This document shows positions 7,162 to 62,556 of a DNA stretch of 64,000 bases, piece by piece. The notes below the pieces were generated by a model, which saw only the letters and a list, made by a program, of their open reading frames with translations, ran no database searches and had not been told where the DNA came from. Origin of the DNA: Streptococcus thermophilus. GTDB taxonomy: Bacteria; Bacillota; Bacilli; Lactobacillales; Streptococcaceae. The position numbers were made by a program, and so were the translations under genes. The number at the start of each line of letters is the position of its first letter. The stretch's first letter is position 1. The stretch is from positions 62,001 through 126,000 of the forward strand of contig NZ_CP038020.1 of the NCBI RefSeq assembly GCF_010120595.1, given 5' to 3'.

Positions 7162-9063
7162 TTATTTAACTGCGATGAAGTCATCACCCTCAGCAACTGA
7201 ACCAGTTGCTACTGATGAAACATCTTCGTAGTCTGCAGTGTTTGTAACGATAACCATAGTTGTATCGTCAAGACCTGCTTCAGTGATAACTGAGCTATCG
7301 AAGGTAGCCAAGACATCACCTTTTTTAACACGTTGATTTGCTTGAACCTTAGCATCAAATCCTTTACCGTCAAGTGAGACAGTATCGATACCGATGTGGA
7401 TAAGCACTTCAGCACCTTTATCAGATTTTAGACCGTAAGCGTGACCTGTTGGGAAGGCAATTTGCACTTCACCATCAAATGGTGCAACAACTCGGTTACC
7501 TGAAGGTTTGATAGCGGAACCTTTACCCATAGCTCCTGAAGAGAAGACTGGGTCATTTACATTTTCCAAAGCTACAACTTCACCTTTAAGTGGTGCAGCA
7601 ATTGTTTCAGCTTGCAATGCAACTGGAGCAGAACCTGCTGAGGCGATATCTTCAGCAACAACTTCTGTTTGAGCTTCAACCTCTTCCTCTTTATATCCAA
7701 AGATCCAAGTAAGAGCGAAACCAAGAGTAAGTGTTACAAGTACCATGATTACATACTTAAGTACTTGACCATTTAGGTAGAGAAGAGTACCAGGAACGAT
7801 TGTTACACCAAATCCTGTACCAGCAAGGTTAAGGATTGATGCCAACCAACCACCAGCAGCACCAGCGATAAGACCCATGATAAATGGTTTACCGAAACGA
7901 AGGTTAACCCCGAAGATAGCTGGTTCAGTGATACCAAGTACTGCTGAAAGACTTGCAGGGAAAGCGAGAGCTTTCAACTTAGAGTCTTTAGTTTTAACAC
8001 CAACAGCAAGTGTTGCACCAGCTTGAGCAGTCATCGCAGCTGTGATGATAGCGTTAAGTGGGTCTTTACCTGTATTAGAAATAAGGTTAGCTTCAAGCAA
8101 GTTGAAAACGTGGTGAACCCCTGTAACGACGATAATTTGGTGAATACCACCTAGAACAAGACCTGCAAGACCAAATGGCAAGGCAAGAATCCACTCTGTA
8201 CCAGCAAGTACGTAGCTCTCAACTGTGTGGAAGACAGGACCAATGATAAAGAGGGCCAAAGCTGACATCACAGCAAAGACAACAAGTGGACGCAAGAGAA
8301 GGTCAAGAACATCTGGAACCCATTTACGAACCCATTGTTCAAACTTAGCACCAATCAAACCTACGAAGAAGGCTGGAAGGACTGAGTTTTGGTAACCAAC
8401 TACTGGAATAAAGTCAAAGAAGTAAATTGGTTTTGCAGCACCTGATACAACATCCCAAGCATTTGGAAGAACATTGTTAACCATCATCAAACCAAGAACC
8501 AAACCAAGAAGTGGTGAACCACCGAAAACGTTAAAGGCTGACCAACAGATCAAGGCTGGGAAGAAGGCAAAGGCTGTATCTGTCAATACAACTGTATAAG
8601 TGTAGAAATCAGTAGCAGCGAAGGCTTTAGATGTTGTACCAAAAAGAGCAAGAACTGTATCATTATTGATGGCTCCACGGATACCCATGAAAAGACCAGA
8701 CGCTACGATAGCTGGAAGCAATGGAACGAAAACGTCACCGAATGAACGGATGGCACGTTGGAACCAGTTCCCTTGTTTAGCAGCTTCTGCTTTTTGTTCG
8801 TCTTTAGATGCTGTTGGAAGACCTTGAGCAACGACTTCGTCGTAAATCTTGTTAACAGTACCTGTACCAAATATCATTTGGTATTGACCTGAGTTAAAGA
8901 AAGCACCTTGAACTTTTTCAATATTCTCAGCTTTTTCTTTATTGATTTTGTTTTCATCTTTAACCATAACACGTAGACGTGTCGCACAGTGAGCAACACT
9001 GTTAACATTTTCACGTCCACCGAGGGCTTCGATGACTTCTTTTGCAATTTGTTTGTAATTCAT
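7162..9063 (-). CDS. scrA: sucrose-specific PTS enzyme IIBCA
   Basis: A membrane permease that imports sucrose and phosphorylates it to sucrose-6-phosphate using the PEP phosphotransferase chain. The order is EIIB (phosphocysteine in AHCATRLRV, about residue 26), then EIIC with about ten hydrophobic segments (residues about 110-470), a flexible linker, and EIIA (active histidine in LIHIGIDTV, near 555). I place the start at the ATG at 9063, which follows AAGGAG; a TTG six bases earlier is also in frame. Its partner scrB is transcribed divergently, and ScrR-type operators lie in the shared intergenic region. Specificity for sucrose is inferred from the neighbours. Confidence 0.95.
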   Translation of the reverse strand: MNYKQIAKEVIEALGGRENVNSVAHCATRLRVMVKDENKINKEKAENIEKVQGAFFNSGQYQMIFGTGTVNKIYDEVVAQGLPTASKDEQKAEAAKQGNWFQRAIRSFGDVFVPLLPAIVASGLFMGIRGAINNDTVLALFGTTSKAFAATDFYTYTVVLTDTAFAFFPALICWSAFNVFGGSPLLGLVLGLMMVNNVLPNAWDVVSGAAKPIYFFDFIPVVGYQNSVLPAFFVGLIGAKFEQWVRKWVPDVLDLLLRPLVVFAVMSALALFIIGPVFHTVESYVLAGTEWILALPFGLAGLVLGGIHQIIVVTGVHHVFNLLEANLISNTGKDPLNAIITAAMTAQAGATLAVGVKTKDSKLKALAFPASLSAVLGITEPAIFGVNLRFGKPFIMGLIAGAAGGWLASILNLAGTGFGVTIVPGTLLYLNGQVLKYVIMVLVTLTLGFALTWIFGYKEEEVEAQTEVVAEDIASAGSAPVALQAETIAAPLKGEVVALENVNDPVFSSGAMGKGSAIKPSGNRVVAPFDGEVQIAFPTGHAYGLKSDKGAEVLIHIGIDTVSLDGKGFDAKVQANQRVKKGDVLATFDSSVITEAGLDDTTMVIVTNTADYEDVSSVATGSVAEGDDFIAVK

Positions 9064-25349: not shown

Positions 25350-26303
25350 ATGCTTTACCGTAAAAATAAACTGGGAGAGGAACTAGAGCTTCCGATCTTT
25401 AACCACTACTATAATATTTCTATCACTGCTCTTGAATTTTACCTTAAAAACCCGGGACAGAGTGATACCTACATCATTACTTTCAAACAGGACAACAACC
25501 TCTTTATTGTTGATATGACACATGATCTTGGTCACACCAGTCACTTTGATGCCGCCTCTCTATTTACAAAAGACAAGCTCCTATCAGGTATCGCAGCTGT
25601 ACCCCTAGCGTCTGTCTACAGCATCCAGATCTTTGCTTTTCCAAAGGAGTTACACTCTCTGGCACCCAGTCAGTATCTTAAAAATCTAGTCGCTCTATAC
25701 TTTAAAGACCCAGAAACCATGCGTTACCTCAAGACGACAAAAAATATAGGTGACCAGGTAACAAGGTACCAACTGGAGTCGGAGAAACTAGAAAGACAAG
25801 GTAAGGTTTTTGAATTTTTCAAGTACACCAGTCGAGGCAAGGTGAAAGAAGAAAACAACTTGTCCGAGGTGTCTAGCAAAGACTACGATTTTCTCCCTGA
25901 TTTCCATCCCTTTTTAAGCTCACCACGAAACCATCAGGTCCTGAGTATACCTGTGACCTACTTTGATGATAAAACTGGACAGACTGCCAAAATCGACATC
26001 ATGGGCTGGTATATTAAAGATCAACAGCTTAAGATCCGTTGGAAACCTAAATACATGCGCAAACGCCGTTGGCGATCTTCACGTATTTCTGTTGACATCG
26101 TGACTAATAACTACTTCTTTCAGGGTCAAATTTACAGAGATAGTAGTGCACCGATTTTTCTGGACAACTTAAGTTTTGATAGCAAAATTCCCAAGAGTTT
26201 CCTGCCACATCTTCAAAAACAATACCAAATTTTTTTATCTCTAGTAGAGGAACAAAAAAGACTAGCCTTGCTTCGAAAGGTTCAGTTAAACAATAAGGAC
26301 TAA
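25350..26303 (+). CDS. conserved protein of unknown function
   Basis: A 317-residue soluble protein without signal peptide or membrane segment. It is rich in aromatic residues, has a basic stretch YMRKRRWRSSRISVDIV near residue 240, and ends in a charged helix (EEQKRLALLRKVQLNNKD). I do not recognise the family. The gene stands alone between the divergent rpsF operon and the short-peptide array that converges on it. Its -10 box lies 6 bases before the ATG, so the message is probably leaderless. Confidence 0.75.
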   Translation: MLYRKNKLGEELELPIFNHYYNISITALEFYLKNPGQSDTYIITFKQDNNLFIVDMTHDLGHTSHFDAASLFTKDKLLSGIAAVPLASVYSIQIFAFPKELHSLAPSQYLKNLVALYFKDPETMRYLKTTKNIGDQVTRYQLESEKLERQGKVFEFFKYTSRGKVKEENNLSEVSSKDYDFLPDFHPFLSSPRNHQVLSIPVTYFDDKTGQTAKIDIMGWYIKDQQLKIRWKPKYMRKRRWRSSRISVDIVTNNYFFQGQIYRDSSAPIFLDNLSFDSKIPKSFLPHLQKQYQIFLSLVEEQKRLALLRKVQLNNKD

Positions 26304-26330: not shown

Positions 26331-26364
26331 AAAAGCTCATTCTTACACACTAAAATGAGCTTTT
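26331..26364. terminator. bidirectional terminator shared with the short-peptide operon
   Basis: Perfect 11-bp stem AAAAGCTCATT / AATGAGCTTTT. It can stop the plus-strand gene at 25350 and the minus-strand peptide operon. A tiny 6-codon frame (MTIEKS, 26363-26383) precedes it on the minus strand. Confidence 0.8.
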
Positions 26365-26431
26365 AAGATTTTTCAATTGTCATTAGAACATCCTTTAGGA
26401 ATTTTGTAAAAAATATTTTCATAAGGAAGAG

Positions 26432-26467
26432 CTATTGTGTGTCACCATTTTTATACCTAGCAATCAT
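26432..26467 (-). CDS. YKNGD short peptide, last of the array
   Basis: MIARYKNGDTQ, 11 residues, with GGAGG 7 bases before the ATG. Shares the RYKNGD core with the other peptides in this operon but uses AGG TAT AAA AAT GGT GAC codons. Confidence 0.6.
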   Translation of the reverse strand: MIARYKNGDTQ

Positions 26468-26542
26468 AAATTACCTCCATCAACTTATAAATGATTTTTA
26501 ACCATTTTAAAATTTTCTATTACATTGGTATCACTCCCTAAG

Positions 26543-26602
26543 CTATTTTGTGCAATAACTTGAAGTATCTCCATTTTTATAACGTCCTAAGTTCATCATC
26601 AT
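26543..26602 (-). CDS. YKNGD short peptide, second copy of the 19-residue form
   Basis: MMMNLGRYKNGDTSSYCTK, in the downstream copy of the 253-bp tandem repeat. AGGGG precedes the ATG cluster. It differs from the other copy only by Arg in place of His before YKNGD. Confidence 0.6.
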   Translation of the reverse strand: MMMNLGRYKNGDTSSYCTK

Positions 26603-26662
26603 AGCAACAACCCCTGATTCTTGTGATTTAGACCTATCTCCCCACTGACCACTCAATGAGGA

Positions 26663-26707
26663 TTACTTATCGCTGTTCTTATAACGACTTACATCAAACA
26701 TCAACAT
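26663..26707 (-). CDS. YKNSD short peptide, second copy of the 14-residue form
   Basis: MLMFDVSRYKNSDK; GAGGTGA lies upstream and overlaps the stop of the preceding 21-residue frame, which suggests translational coupling. Same sequence as the copy at 26916-26960. Confidence 0.55.
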   Translation of the reverse strand: MLMFDVSRYKNSDK

Positions 26708-26712
26708 AATCG

Positions 26713-26778
26713 TCACCTCGGTACTTTGTTACAAGATTTCAGCATTAAACTTTTGTCGATAGTTAACTTGTTTGGCAT
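26713..26778 (-). CDS. 21-residue frame between YKNGD peptides, second copy
   Basis: Begins MPNKLTIDKSLMLKSC and ends NKVPR, behind GGGAG. It lacks the YKNGD motif; an in-frame GTG 9 bases earlier could also start it. It may serve to couple translation to the next peptide. Confidence 0.4.
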   Translation of the reverse strand: MPNKLTIDKSLMLKSCNKVPR

Positions 26779-26795
26779 TGGTATCACTCCCTAAG

Positions 26796-26855
26796 CTATT
26801 TTGTGCAATAACTTGAAGTATCTCCATTTTTATAATGTCCTAAGTTCATCATCAT
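26796..26855 (-). CDS. YKNGD short peptide, first copy of the 19-residue form
   Basis: MMMNLGHYKNGDTSSYCTK, with His in place of the usual Arg before YKNGD. Lies in the promoter-proximal copy of the 253-bp repeat. Confidence 0.6.
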   Translation of the reverse strand: MMMNLGHYKNGDTSSYCTK

Positions 26856-26915
26856 AGCAACAACCCCTGATTCTTGTGATTTAGACCTATCTCCCCACTG
26901 ACAACTCAATGAGGA

Positions 26916-26960
26916 TTACTTATCGCTGTTCTTATAACGACTTACATCAAACATCAACAT
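26916..26960 (-). CDS. YKNSD short peptide, first copy of the 14-residue form
   Basis: MLMFDVSRYKNSDK, 14 residues, behind CCGAGGTGA. Ser replaces Gly in the motif, and the codons are CGT TAT AAG AAC AGC GAT. Confidence 0.55.
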   Translation of the reverse strand: MLMFDVSRYKNSDK

Positions 26961-26965
26961 AATCG

Positions 26966-27031
26966 TCACCTCGGTACTTTGTTACAAGATTTCAGCATTA
27001 AACTTTTGTCGATAGTTAACTTGTTTGGCAT
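26966..27031 (-). CDS. 21-residue frame between YKNGD peptides, first copy
   Basis: Same 21 codons as 26713-26778, behind AAGGAG. No YKNGD motif; its stop overlaps the ribosome binding site of the next peptide. Confidence 0.4.
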   Translation of the reverse strand: MPNKLTIDKSLMLKSCNKVPR

Positions 27032-27065
27032 TGGTATCACTCCTTAAGCTATTTTACACAACTGC

Positions 27066-27104
27066 TTAAGTATCTCCATTTTTATACCTACTAACATTTC
27101 TCAT
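27066..27104 (-). CDS. YKNGD short peptide, 12 residues
   Basis: MRNVSRYKNGDT. The ribosome binding site is weak (GAAGTAAAG). It is followed by the recurrent spacer AAAATAGCTTAAGGAGTGAT, also seen in variant forms after the other peptides. Confidence 0.55.
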   Translation of the reverse strand: MRNVSRYKNGDT

Positions 27105-27200
27105 GAGCTTTACTTCACTTTTTTCGTAAGTTAATGGATTTGATTTTAGCTTTCAACTTCTGGCGGTATCACTCCCTTGTAGCTATTTTATGCGACTTAA

Positions 27201-27233
27201 TTAATCCCCATTCTTATAACGCCCCACTGTCAT
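27201..27233 (-). CDS. YKNGD short peptide, 10 residues
   Basis: MTVGRYKNGD, the shortest member, behind TGAGGAGCG. Motif codons CGT TAT AAG AAT GGG GAT differ at four of six positions from those of the first peptide. Confidence 0.6.
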   Translation of the reverse strand: MTVGRYKNGD

Positions 27234-27290
27234 GTGACCACGCTCCTCAGAGATGATTGGTAAAGTTATTTGTTTTGCCTACTATTTTGT

Positions 27291-27341
27291 TTAGATATCT
27301 TGGTCTCCGTTTTTATACCTTGAAATATTGATTCTCACCAT
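27291..27341 (-). CDS. YKNGD short peptide, first of the array
   Basis: MVRINISRYKNGDQDI, 16 residues, with a strong AAGGAGG 8 bases before the ATG and a good promoter 44 bases upstream. Motif codons AGG TAT AAA AAC GGA GAC. Confidence 0.65.
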   Translation of the reverse strand: MVRINISRYKNGDQDI

Positions 27342-27384
27342 GGCTTTTACCTCCTTGATGAATCCTTATCTTCTTTACATTTTT

Positions 27385-27413
27385 ATTATAATGTAAACGC
27401 TTACTTTTATCAA
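27385..27413 (-). promoter_or_regulatory. promoter of the short-peptide operon, overlapped by a cre-like site
   Basis: TTGATA and TATAAT separated by 17 bases on the minus strand. The spacer contains ATGTAAACGCTTACTT (27391-27406), which matches the CcpA cre consensus except near its last positions, so carbon catabolite repression is plausible. Confidence 0.75.
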
Positions 27414-27473: not shown

Positions 27474-28625
27474 ATGTTAGATTTAAAAGAATATGGCATT
27501 GTTATGTGGGATGCTGAGAAAATTGTATCTTTTCGTCGCACCCTCCTGGACTGGTACGATCGTGAAAAACGGGACCTACCTTGGCGTCGAATTAAGAATC
27601 CCTACTATATCTGGGTCAGTGAAATCATGTTACAACAAACTCAAGTGCAGACTGTCATTCCCTATTACGAGCGCTTTTTAGACTGGTTTCCAACAGTTAA
27701 GGATTTGGCTGAGGCTCCAGAAGAAAAACTCCTCAAAGCTTGGGAGGGTCTAGGTTACTACTCACGTGTCCGAAACATGCAAAAGGCTGCACAACAAATC
27801 ATGACTGACTTTGCTGGTCAGTTCCCAGATACTTATGACAATATTGCAAAACTCAAGGGGATCGGCCCCTATACTGCTGGTGCTATTTCTAGCATCGCTT
27901 TTGATCTCCCTGAACCTGCTGTTGATGGGAATGTTATGCGAGTCATGGCTCGCCTCTTTGAAGTTAACTATGACATCGGAGACCCTAAGAATCGTAAGAT
28001 TTTCCAAGCTATTATGGAAATTTTGATTGATCCTGACCGTCCAGGTGACTTCAATCAGGCGCTTATGGACCTCGGGTCCGATATCGAATCGGCTAAAAAT
28101 CCAAGACCAGACGAAAGTCCTATTCGCTTTTTCTGTGCAGCCTATCTCAATGGAACCTATGACAAATACCCCATCAAATTGCCAAAGAAAAAGCCCAAAC
28201 CTGTGCAAATTCAGGCTTTTATTATCAGAAATATGAAGGGTGAATTTCTTCTAGAAAAAAATATCGACGGGCGCCTACTAGGTGGTTTCTGGACTTTCCC
28301 TATCATAGAGACGGACTTTATTGGCCAACAACTCAGTCTTTTTAAAAAGGATAATTGTGCCCTCGAAACCGTTTCACAAAAAGCTATTTTCGAGGAAAAT
28401 TATGCTCTTAAACCAGTCTGGGCAGACAATAACTTTACACCCGTAAAACATACCTTCAGCCACCAAAAATGGACCATCGAAATAGTGGAAGGTATTGTTA
28501 AAGATGACAAACTCCCTACCCACAAGGAGCTATGCTGGGTAACGACTGAGGACTTTAACCAGTTCCCAATGGCCACACCACAGAAAAAAATGATTAAAAC
28601 TTATGAAGATAGCAAAAAAGGGTAG
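27474..28625 (+). CDS. mutY: A/G-specific adenine glycosylase lacking iron-sulfur ligands
   Basis: A 383-residue MutY that removes adenine mispaired with 8-oxoguanine. The catalytic Glu lies in the EIMLQQTQVQTV segment near residue 50, and the helix-hairpin-helix LKGIGPYTAGAISSIAF with the following VDGNVMRV (catalytic Asp) is intact. The C-terminal NUDIX-like recognition domain begins near residue 240. The usual four-Cys cluster loop is LGSDIESAKNPRPDESPIRFFC here, with only the last Cys kept, so this is a clusterless MutY. Such forms are known in some lactic acid bacteria. Confidence 0.93.
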   Translation: MLDLKEYGIVMWDAEKIVSFRRTLLDWYDREKRDLPWRRIKNPYYIWVSEIMLQQTQVQTVIPYYERFLDWFPTVKDLAEAPEEKLLKAWEGLGYYSRVRNMQKAAQQIMTDFAGQFPDTYDNIAKLKGIGPYTAGAISSIAFDLPEPAVDGNVMRVMARLFEVNYDIGDPKNRKIFQAIMEILIDPDRPGDFNQALMDLGSDIESAKNPRPDESPIRFFCAAYLNGTYDKYPIKLPKKKPKPVQIQAFIIRNMKGEFLLEKNIDGRLLGGFWTFPIIETDFIGQQLSLFKKDNCALETVSQKAIFEENYALKPVWADNNFTPVKHTFSHQKWTIEIVEGIVKDDKLPTHKELCWVTTEDFNQFPMATPQKKMIKTYEDSKKG

Positions 28626-61666: not shown

Positions 61667-62556
61667 CAGCTCACCCCTTTAGCTTGTTGTTTTCTAACTG
61701 CTTGGTTCCATTCTGACATGATGCCATTAAAGACATATTCAGCAACCATTTCTGATGAACGGGCAAATTTCATATTTTCTAAAGCATACTGATAGCGGTT
61801 ATCAAAATGAATCATAGCGTAATCTGCAACTGAAGGTGATAAGTTTTCTTTGAGGAGTTGGTCATGAACCAAATCCCAAATATAGTCTTTATCATACTTG
61901 GTCACTTTATCAACTTTCCTAGAAAGTGAATCTTGATTTTTTTCTTCAGGATTTTGAGTTGATTTCTCTTCCTCATCCTCAGAATAATTTACTTTAATAT
62001 CACTCTCTTTAGTCTCACTCTTTTTAATATAAGTTGAGTCGGAATTCACGACTTCTGGAAGTCGATTTTTACGACTTCTGGAAGTCGATTTTTGCGACTT
62101 CTGGAAGTCGGATTTTGCGACTTCCATTGATTTTACTGGATTTACCAGGTCTTTAGCTTCTTCAAATTCCATATTTAGGATTTGAATATCCGTAATAACA
62201 TTCTTCACATAAATACGGTTAGCCTTATTTAAACCTTGTCTGACTTCATCAATCAAGCCGTATTTGATAAGTTCTTTTTTTAGCTTCATAACTTTATCAC
62301 GACCACAACCCAAGTCTTCAGCTAGGTCTTCGATGGCGTAATAAATGAAAATATCACCTAAGTCATCCACAAATCTTAAATCACCTTTACGGGTGCTATC
62401 CAGTGAAGCACTTAAACGGTCACGACAGAGCATAAACATCAATTTAGCTTCAGCCTTTAGTTTACGATAATATCTAGTACCAATAATCACTTTTGGTAGT
62501 TGATAAAAATTATCACTATTCAAAGCTTGCTCTAAAGAAATTCTTCCGTAAGCCAT
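61666..62556 (-). CDS. repA: RepA_N-type replication initiator
   Basis: A 296-residue protein. The N-terminal RepA_N domain (residues 1-115: GRISLEQALNSDNFYQLPKVI, LKAEAKLMFMLCRDRLSASL, EDLAEDLGCGRDKVMKLKKELIKYGLIDEVRQGLNKANRIYVKN) is a winged-helix initiator of theta-replicating plasmids. A repetitive basic Ser/Lys/Gln stretch at about 145-170 is encoded by the iterons. The C-terminal domain (residues 215-296, DYIWDLVHDQLLKENLS) is host-specific in this family. It lets the excised circle replicate. Confidence 0.88.
   Translation of the reverse strand: MAYGRISLEQALNSDNFYQLPKVIIGTRYYRKLKAEAKLMFMLCRDRLSASLDSTRKGDLRFVDDLGDIFIYYAIEDLAEDLGCGRDKVMKLKKELIKYGLIDEVRQGLNKANRIYVKNVITDIQILNMEFEEAKDLVNPVKSMEVAKSDFQKSQKSTSRSRKNRLPEVVNSDSTYIKKSETKESDIKVNYSEDEEEKSTQNPEEKNQDSLSRKVDKVTKYDKDYIWDLVHDQLLKENLSPSVADYAMIHFDNRYQYALENMKFARSSEMVAEYVFNGIMSEWNQAVRKQQAKGVS
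62048..62126. repeat. iterons, probable origin of replication inside repA
   Basis: Three exact-spaced 23-bp direct repeats (62048-62070, 62071-62093, 62094-62116), plus a partial fourth; each contains the palindrome CGACTTCTGGAAGTCG. In RepA_N plasmids the origin lies within the rep gene, so these are probable initiator binding sites. Confidence 0.8.

Follow-up and report, generated by a model that had tools for sequence, protein, structure and literature searches.

A short minus-strand cluster in Streptococcus thermophilus is, judged at the level of sequence, very probably a self-contained mini-operon for eight variants of one strongly selected micropeptide core, and in other Bacillota the core is found at the front of operons that encode exported proteins. 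The cluster runs from position 27413 to about 26331 of the 64,000-nucleotide (nt) stretch of contig NZ_CP038020.1 that was analysed (positions 62,001 to 126,000 of the forward strand; hereafter the window). It comprises a promoter, eight in-frame mini-open reading frames (mini-ORFs; 10-19 codons, 27341-26432), and a terminator. Five mini-ORFs carry the hexapeptide RYKNGD, two carry RYKNSD, and one carries HYKNGD. A sequence-only reading of the window had proposed a minus-strand promoter followed by at least eight tiny frames with this motif; all eight were recovered here as matches to a variant-tolerant pattern, which found none in any of 2000 dinucleotide-preserving shuffles of the region. 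Across the whole 2.10 Mb genome the relaxed pattern matched eight times, always inside the cluster and on the reverse strand; the reversed control pattern matched once on the forward and three times on the reverse strand.

Selection on the peptide core

By the codon evidence, selection acts on the peptide and not on the DNA or RNA, as the sequence-only reading had held: synonymous codons vary freely, and first- and second-position changes are scarce in the two best-resolved groups of arrays. A tolerant motif search of 33 Streptococcus arrays (up to two mismatches; very decayed copies would be missed) yielded 139 copies, 126 of which are exactly RYKNGD and six of which lack a start preceded by a Shine-Dalgarno (SD) sequence by the rule used. 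The Asp is invariant (139/139), and Asn and Arg are nearly so (138 and 137 copies). Arg is nevertheless written with all six of its codons (CGT 36, CGC 29, AGG 28, CGG 25, AGA 18, CGA 1), Asn with AAT (70) or AAC (68), and Asp with GAC (75) or GAT (64). Position -3 relative to the motif is Asn, Asp, or His in 126 of the 139 copies, and a stop codon directly follows the Asp in 47. The prevailing form of the core is N-[VIL]-[SGA]-R-Y-K-N-G-D, outside which the copies share little.

Decay of the motif codons at the rate of the spacers, named by the sequence-only reading as the outcome that would speak against it, was looked for and not seen. Among four aligned arrays of window relatives, differences amount to 11/462 (0.024) at motif positions 1 and 2, 46/252 (0.183) at third positions, and 574/4348 (0.132) in the spacers, the first base of the Arg codon being counted apart in these comparisons. 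A second group, of six arrays, gave 30/495, 96/270, and 1862/6660, respectively. The contrast within the motif is weak in a third group of five arrays (25/561, 22/306, and 1332/6986 in the spacers), and in a fourth group of three the motif is unchanged (0/66 and 0/36) versus 196/694 differences in the spacers.

Arrays beside mutY and single copies at operon heads

Exact matches to an 18-base degenerate pattern encoding [RS]YKNGD were present in 72 of 197 Streptococcus genomes; many single matches fall in ordinary genes. Two or more matches on one strand occurred in 42 of the 197 genomes, compared with two for the reversed control pattern. Thirty-three of the 42, the window included, were studied as arrays; in one (G045) the two matches lie on separate contigs, and eight others are outside the set; the 40 stretches fetched are the 33 arrays, five single copies, and two chance matches in long frames. 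The arrays hold two to eight copies, and 32 of the 33 are divergent from mutY, with rpsF-ssb-rpsR present in 25 of the 40 stretches (gene names assigned by eye). A recent expansion is apparent in S. hillyeri (L105), where MC[VI]ARYKNGDN.. stands in three near-identical tandem copies spaced 135 nt apart.

All of 30 genomes without a pattern match have mutY, and in none of them does a YKNGD frame lie 900 nt or less from the mutY start; one of these array-negative genomes (L207) has a single RYKSGD within a frame of unchecked length near mutY. Nor was a match to the catabolite-responsive element (cre) found within 500 nt of mutY in the 30 genomes, by a pattern stricter than the score used on the arrays. 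A mutY tree with 31 array and 30 non-array rows requires five changes of the array trait, versus about 21 in shuffles, and places 22 of the 30 array-negative rows in one clade, which fits vertical descent with a few gains or losses. Two rows of this tree (L210 and L234) have very long branches and are probably misread frames, and two arrays had no usable mutY row. The window groups with L063, L066, and L067 (support 94/100).

The window array consists of the following features.

27385..27413, minus strand: sigma-70 type promoter TTGATA-17-TATAAT, 11/12 matches (promoter scan)
27391..27406, minus strand: cre-like operator (CcpA-type) AAGTAAGCGTTTACAT in the -35/-10 spacer, 13/14 consensus positions
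27291..27341, minus strand: mini-ORF 1, MVRINISRYKNGDQDI, SD AGGAGG
27259..27282, minus strand: recurring non-coding element GTAGGCAA...ACTTTAC, after the first mini-ORF
27201..27233, minus strand: mini-ORF 2, MTVGRYKNGD, SD GAGGAG
27066..27104, minus strand: mini-ORF 3, MRNVSRYKNGDT, weak SD in the window, GAGGT at the same place in relatives
26523..27028, minus strand: 253-bp tandem duplication, two copies (26523-26775 and 26776-27028) 99% identical
26916..26960, minus strand: mini-ORF 4, MLMFDVSRYKNSDK, SD GAGG
26796..26855, minus strand: mini-ORF 5, MMMNLGHYKNGDTSSYCTK, weak SD
26663..26707, minus strand: mini-ORF 6, MLMFDVSRYKNSDK, duplicate of mini-ORF 4
26543..26602, minus strand: mini-ORF 7, MMMNLGRYKNGDTSSYCTK, duplicate of mini-ORF 5, weak SD
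26520..26538, minus strand: start-stop element, SD GGGAG...ATGTAA
26432..26467, minus strand: mini-ORF 8, MIARYKNGDTQ, SD GGAGG
26331..26364, minus strand: intrinsic terminator, hairpin and T-run (terminator scan)

This layout refines some earlier claims. Two forms are indeed present twice, but both repeats come from the single 253-bp tandem duplication, owing to which not all flanks are unrelated, as had been thought. Similarly, an own ribosome binding site had been credited to nearly all frames; five of the eight have one, but those of MRNVSRYKNGDT and both MMMNL[GH]... copies are weak. Relatives keep GAGGT there, so the window array looks partly worn. As the sequence-only reading had stated, no maturase, exporter, or receptor gene adjoins the array (ORF list, by eye). 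The divergent mutY (named by eye) begins at 27474. On the other side, a plus-strand gene for a 317-residue protein (25350-26303) converges on the array; it is present in only three of the 40 fetched stretches, converging in each.

The cre-like site in the promoter had not been noticed in the sequence-only reading. The same promoter architecture recurs in 32 of the 33 arrays (by eye), and a cre-like site matching at least 10 of 14 positions lies inside the -35/-10 spacer in 32 (placement by eye from printed contexts), L060 being the exception. Scores of at least 12 were reached in 27 of the 33 arrays; shuffled upstream stretches reached at least 11 in 10.3% and at least 12 in 2.2%, and the arrays are homologous, so that these counts are not independent. 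Cre sites that overlap promoters are the basis for expecting repression by CcpA and its release without glucose, and the Streptococcus arrays are, by these sites, probably sugar-controlled. A terminator (-7 kcal/mol or lower) is predicted within 330 nt of the last mini-ORF in 28 of the 33 arrays, a count made without a shuffle control; in the window, the number of promoter-like or terminator-like sites as such is no higher than in shuffles. The terminator loop is frequently GTGTGCA or a near-variant (e.g., window 26333-26362, L041, L044, and L054), as if kept for a reason. An element starting with GTAGGC, mostly behind the first mini-ORF, occurs in 29 of the 33 arrays (by eye) and is a possible candidate for a base-pairing or processing site. 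Thirteen of the 33 arrays, including the window, also contain a start-stop ORF (SD, ATG, stop) in similar surroundings (GGAGTGATACCAATGTAA or close).

Beyond the arrays, a named scan for ribosome binding site, start, and motif matched at least 118 stretches, 80 of them listed (25 from Streptococcus and 55 from other genera). Among the matches listed, the carriers other than Streptococcus are Anaerococcus, Peptoniphilus, Ezakiella, Parvimonas, Peptostreptococcus, Tissierella, Catonella, Lachnoanaerobaculum, Granulicatella, and Eggerthia, as well as several Erysipelotrichaceae and Lachnospiraceae; the hexapeptide thus spans Streptococcus, those families, Tissierellia, and others. The usual forms among these matches are M..NPQRYKNGD and M..N[VI]SRYKNGD. 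Thirty-nine of the 55 non-Streptococcus loci entered a test of the downstream genes and 16 were dropped: 11 were judged not to be mini-ORFs (six with the motif inside long frames, three without ATG, one 42-residue SYKNGD frame, and one 18-residue Pirellulales ORF taken for chance), and five were mini-ORFs at a stretch end, repeats of another locus, or a QSYKNGD variant. The 38 stretches beyond the 80 listed comprise 10 with at least two copies, 24 with one mini-ORF, and four with a longer frame or a variant.

Most of the single copies precede genes for exported proteins. The 39 loci contain 42 mini-ORFs, 37 of which are followed within 450 nt by a gene on the same strand, and 32 of these 37 downstream proteins have a signal peptide, versus 37 of 183 other genes in these loci (Fisher p 2e-14). 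One gene follows two mini-ORFs of L091, and the count for distinct downstream genes is 31 of 36; the signal-peptide rule is crude and accepts some membrane anchors too, and some of the downstream genes are mutually related. The proportion was 13 of 16 in a further set of 19 mini-ORFs, which excludes five motif hits that lack an SD-preceded start, and 16 of 20 in the 24 single-copy stretches, four of the 20 being places also covered elsewhere in the analysis. Scanning of 70 proteins of the downstream operons returned Lactococcin_972 (PF09683) twice and ABC_tran and TIGR03608 three times each, along with single matches such as Amidase_6, CHAT, sortase, and M24 peptidase; most of the proteins match other families or none.

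Among 391 genomes of a single class, seven carry the NPQ form, two of which had been identified as carriers before, so the form is accessory in that class; at the order level, 25 of 295 genomes had a match, and more than two matches per genome occurred only in Streptococcus, with two in one other genome (G314). By contrast with zero control matches in both, one 1.3 Mb Erysipelotrichaceae assembly has 10 loci and another assembly has nine. In the 10-locus genome, the next start lies 60-84 nt past the motif in nine of the 10 cases, and the next gene passes the signal-peptide rule in eight. One contig (L303; G463 contig 20) carries three RYKNGD leaders within 5 kb, with near-alike upstream sequences, a terminator-like hairpin among them, which looks like the copying of a leader module. 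Among seven stretches from viral contigs, only L198 has a genuine copy, situated between a small XRE gene on its upstream side and a gene for a secreted protein on its downstream side; in the other six the motif lies inside longer frames or lacks a start. A plasmid search with one 32-residue form gave no match.

The regulatory surroundings of the single copies vary. Best cre scores at the 42 outside loci are near shuffled values, save for seven that reach at least 12 (among them Granulicatella, Eggerthia, and three single-copy Streptococcus loci), and we rejected CcpA control as a general rule for copies outside the arrays on this ground. The regulators encoded upstream differ by locus (by eye) and include small XRE, PadR-like, BlaI-like, and TprA-like proteins and a response regulator. 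Several Tissierellia-type genomes (L133, L139, L154, and L157) and the contig from a viral collection (L198) encode a small XRE regulator, about 75-80 residues long, directly ahead of the NPQRYKNGD ORF; the regulator has a Cys-rich end in all four of the former. A single MSRYKNGD-type ORF behind a cre-like promoter precedes a phosphotransferase system gene in L073, L074 (G021, G026), L142, L117, and L096 (names by eye); these loci, from S. merionis, S. moroccensis, and S. ovuberis, also encode lipoprotein-like esterases where seen. A TprA-like gene adjoins two of the five single-copy Streptococcus loci fetched. In L072 (about 7480-8150, oriented), the RYKNGD ORF follows what we take to be a PhrA-like ORF (ending SNGLDVGKAD), next to a presumed TprA-like regulator and ahead of what is presumably a YcaO/thiazole-type bacteriocin cluster; in L071, the copy stands behind a gene that we likewise take, by eye, for a TprA-like regulator.

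Ribosome, free peptide, or RNA

The letter-for-letter retention of a hexapeptide from streptococci to clostridial families requires a partner that is itself highly conserved. Two sets of facts point in different directions: a separate copy before each operon of one genome (10 loci in 1.3 Mb; control matches, 0) looks like a cis element, and a stand-alone array with its own terminator looks trans-acting. A partner conserved over bacterial classes could unite them, and the ribosome may be the plainest such partner, since a target in ribosomal RNA fits well with a core conserved at the residue level over this taxonomic range. We tentatively favour an effect of the nascent chain on the ribosome over a free peptide with a protein target. 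The mini-ORFs might then form an undescribed class of ribosome-acting elements (core N-x-x-R-Y-K-N-G-D) across Bacillota, used as modules at operon heads and multiplied in streptococci into catabolite-repressed arrays that yield nascent peptides and ribosome-loaded RNA, an idea we advance with considerable doubt. With glucose present, CcpA would repress the array; once the preferred sugar is exhausted, the RNA would be made and its mini-ORFs translated. With the Asp in the P site, RYKNGD would lie in the upper exit tunnel and slow or arrest the next step, be it peptide bond formation or termination, so that each mini-ORF would park one ribosome. ErmBL, once a macrolide is bound, brings about such an arrest through its last residues, R-N-V-D. 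Ahead of an operon, the parked ribosome could tune or protect the transcript in cis, and in an array without glucose a string of parked ribosomes could give a long-lived, ribosome-holding RNA.

The pattern of constraint along the chain is one argument for this reading. Positions -3, -2, and -1 carry 2.9, 1.5, and 2.0 bits of information in Streptococcus and 3.1, 2.1, and 2.4 bits elsewhere, whereas position +1 carries 0.9 bits in Streptococcus and 0.03 elsewhere. Such one-sided constraint, largely ending at the Asp outside Streptococcus, is what one would predict for a chain that acts ahead of the synthesis of later residues. At the Asp the chain is about nine or more residues long. The CmlA and Cat-86 leaders stall at Asp as well. 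ErmBL is described as stalling at codon 10, also an Asp, in passages of PMC8274638 and PMC9178857, and the sections of PMC4935803 on its tunnel contacts assign these mostly to the last four residues, Arg7-Asp10 (R-N-V-D), and report that most changes of Asp10 abolish stalling.

Several observations weigh against a ribosomal role. Position +1 is not fully free in Streptococcus (0.9 bits), position +2 elsewhere carries 0.87 bits, and positions +3 to +6 in longer Streptococcus arrays carry 0.7-2.7 bits (up to 2.7 at +5), perhaps from shared descent. According to the same sections of PMC4935803, ErmBL stalling requires the bound drug, and its critical residues are Arg7 and Val9-Lys11, not Asn8; in RYKNGD, the Asn is nearly invariant (138/139) and the residue after the Asp is variable, unlike ErmBL, where the A-site Lys is critical and the Asn is not. 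For 30 pairs of a mini-ORF and the gene that follows it, no RNA switch is predicted in the interval (mean z -0.07; SD accessibility 0.56 versus 0.57), and a known attenuation scheme consequently does not apply. The distance from motif to next start grows by 1.48 nt per extra C-terminal residue (33 pairs), which lies between the slopes of a motif-anchored model (0; p 0.044) and a stop-anchored model (3; p 0.02). A stand-alone array without a downstream gene has nothing to control in cis. Precedent for transcript protection by a parked ribosome is mixed: passages of PMC9178857 name messenger RNA (mRNA) stabilisation as one means of ermB induction, but those of PMC5118997 tie ermB expression to mRNA stability independently of stalling, so we infer such protection by analogy that is only partly backed.

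In a rival reading, which we hold to be a serious though uncertain possibility and nearly as likely, the nine-residue core is a free intracellular micropeptide, a short linear motif binding in trans to a cytosolic protein conserved in Bacillota. Arrays would then raise the dose without glucose, and copies at operon heads would make the peptide together with the exported protein. A trans-acting product fits the stand-alone arrays (28/33 with a predicted terminator) and copies that share little beyond the core, and SR1P of Bacillus and VcdP of Vibrio, small proteins linked to central metabolism in the portions of the literature cited below, are precedents; yet no partner gene was found, a trans peptide would not need a copy of its own at each of many operons of one genome, and a profile of 30 forms against solved structures returned one chain with seven residues matched at an E value of 1.1. 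The core might instead work in the manner of SIP of S. pyogenes, as a leaderless signalling peptide that is released, re-imported, and recognised by a receptor in the cytosol. Leaderless peptides do exist, as parts of PMC10518010 and PMC6565748 describe, the downstream genes are mostly for secreted proteins, and the copies in L072 and L071 adjoin quorum-sensing parts, that of L072 lying between the TprA-like regulator with its PhrA-like ORF and the bacteriocin operon. A pheromone role is nonetheless unlikely: pheromones generally diverge between species, whereas this core stays constant from one class of Bacillota to another. The peptides, moreover, are short and mostly polar without an evident export signal, the upstream regulators differ between loci (by eye), and no receptor gene is common to the mutY arrays (families of the 33 arrays, by eye). 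The TprA-like regulator was rejected as a general receptor: in L072 it already has its own PhrA-like peptide, and the window genome has only a weak match (E 2.4e-4).

That base pairing by a dual-function RNA is the main activity and the peptides are secondary strikes us as improbable to a slightly greater degree. The GTAGGC element in 29 of the 33 arrays, the frequent GTGTGCA or similar terminator loop, and the precedent of carbon control in Vibrio, as far as the excerpts of PMC8672173 go, speak for it, but the strongest conservation is that of the peptide core, the spacers diverge, and no Rfam family matches the array. A classical attenuation leader, whose stalled ribosome would open a hairpin covering the ribosome binding site of the following gene, would suit the leader-like position and spacing outside Streptococcus; it is very improbable, as the 30 pairs have neither excess structure nor a mean change in SD accessibility, even if single pairs (L080, L136) do change, and arrays have no gene to attenuate. 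An artefact or untranslated repeat DNA, for which one could cite the tandem duplication that makes up one half of the array and some weak SDs in the window, can be practically dismissed given codon-level selection over species, eight matches versus none in shuffles, and the lack of any array remnant next to mutY in all 30 match-less genomes. Separately, mimicry of the A-loop of MacB-type ABC ATPases (..NINKSYKNGDQ.. in some from Streptococcus) was considered and rejected: the resemblance is confined to YKNGD and does not extend to the adjoining residues, and a motif of this kind occurs in three of 16 ATPase frames scanned in the fetched loci.

Genes as short as the RYKNGD mini-ORFs easily escape annotation. 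If they act on the ribosome, they represent a new arrest motif, a movable regulatory part ahead of operons for secreted proteins, together with an operon type made only of such parts. If they act as a free peptide, they represent a micropeptide regulator that is conserved and, in streptococci, probably linked to sugar control.

Comparison with known systems

The sequence-only reading knew of no described system of this kind, and a full-text literature search found none like the RYKNGD arrays, although letters printed only in figures, supplements, or subscription papers would escape it. A ribosome-profiling set of 114 small ORFs from pneumococcus (PMC9426450) did not surface by its main text in the search for the motif letters. 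Queries of 25-37 residues had no match in NCBIfam (four queries, one artificially lengthened) or Pfam (three queries), the ordinary forms of 10-19 residues being too short to scan. Rfam gave no match in the array and only two sub-threshold hits inside mutY, and the single seven-residue match in the PDB (E 1.1) was taken as chance. The streptococcal arrays and the single copies ahead of secreted-protein genes point to an undescribed peptide-based control element, which shares some traits with each of several known systems.

Lactococcin 972 operons (PF09683, TIGR03608) are in some cases headed by an RYKNGD mini-ORF, but the mini-ORF itself falls outside that family, and the majority of the downstream proteins match other families or none. 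The leaderless peptides SIP/LCP and the pheromones SHP and PhrA likewise come from very short streptococcal ORFs, and single RYKNGD copies can adjoin TprA/Phr-like genes; the RYKNGD core differs in being polar and constant across classes, in having no receptor gene shared by the arrays, and in occupying many loci per genome in some other families.

Catabolite control is known for SR1 and Spot 42, and Spot 42 also encodes SpfP. SR1P of Bacillus, a small protein encoded by a dual-function RNA, interacts with GapA in the relevant passages of PMC8152036 and PMC8501984, and VcdP of Vibrio, in those of PMC8672173, has 29 residues and comes from a dual-function RNA of carbon control. As far as these excerpts describe them, SR1/SR1P, VcdRP/VcdP, and Spot 42/SpfP resemble the arrays as small RNA genes that also encode a small protein and are linked to central metabolism; SR1, VcdRP, and Spot 42 have one ORF each, whereas RYKNGD arrays have two to eight mini-ORFs with one shared core. 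A copper-responsive upstream ORF, in the part of PMC9426467 that introduces it, is similarly a new upstream ORF exerting posttranscriptional control, but it responds to another signal and belongs to a three-gene operon, not to arrays.

Leaders of the ErmBL type share with the RYKNGD mini-ORFs their small size, an early Asp codon at which ErmBL stalls and at which stalling is suggested here by analogy, and a basic-Asn-x-Asp sequence (R-N-V-D in ErmBL, K-N-G-D here). They differ in that RYKNGD has no drug known, no RNA switch found, and no resistance gene, and occurs in stand-alone arrays of up to eight, with a six-residue core shared over bacterial classes. In ErmBL, moreover, the A-site Lys is required and the Asn is not.

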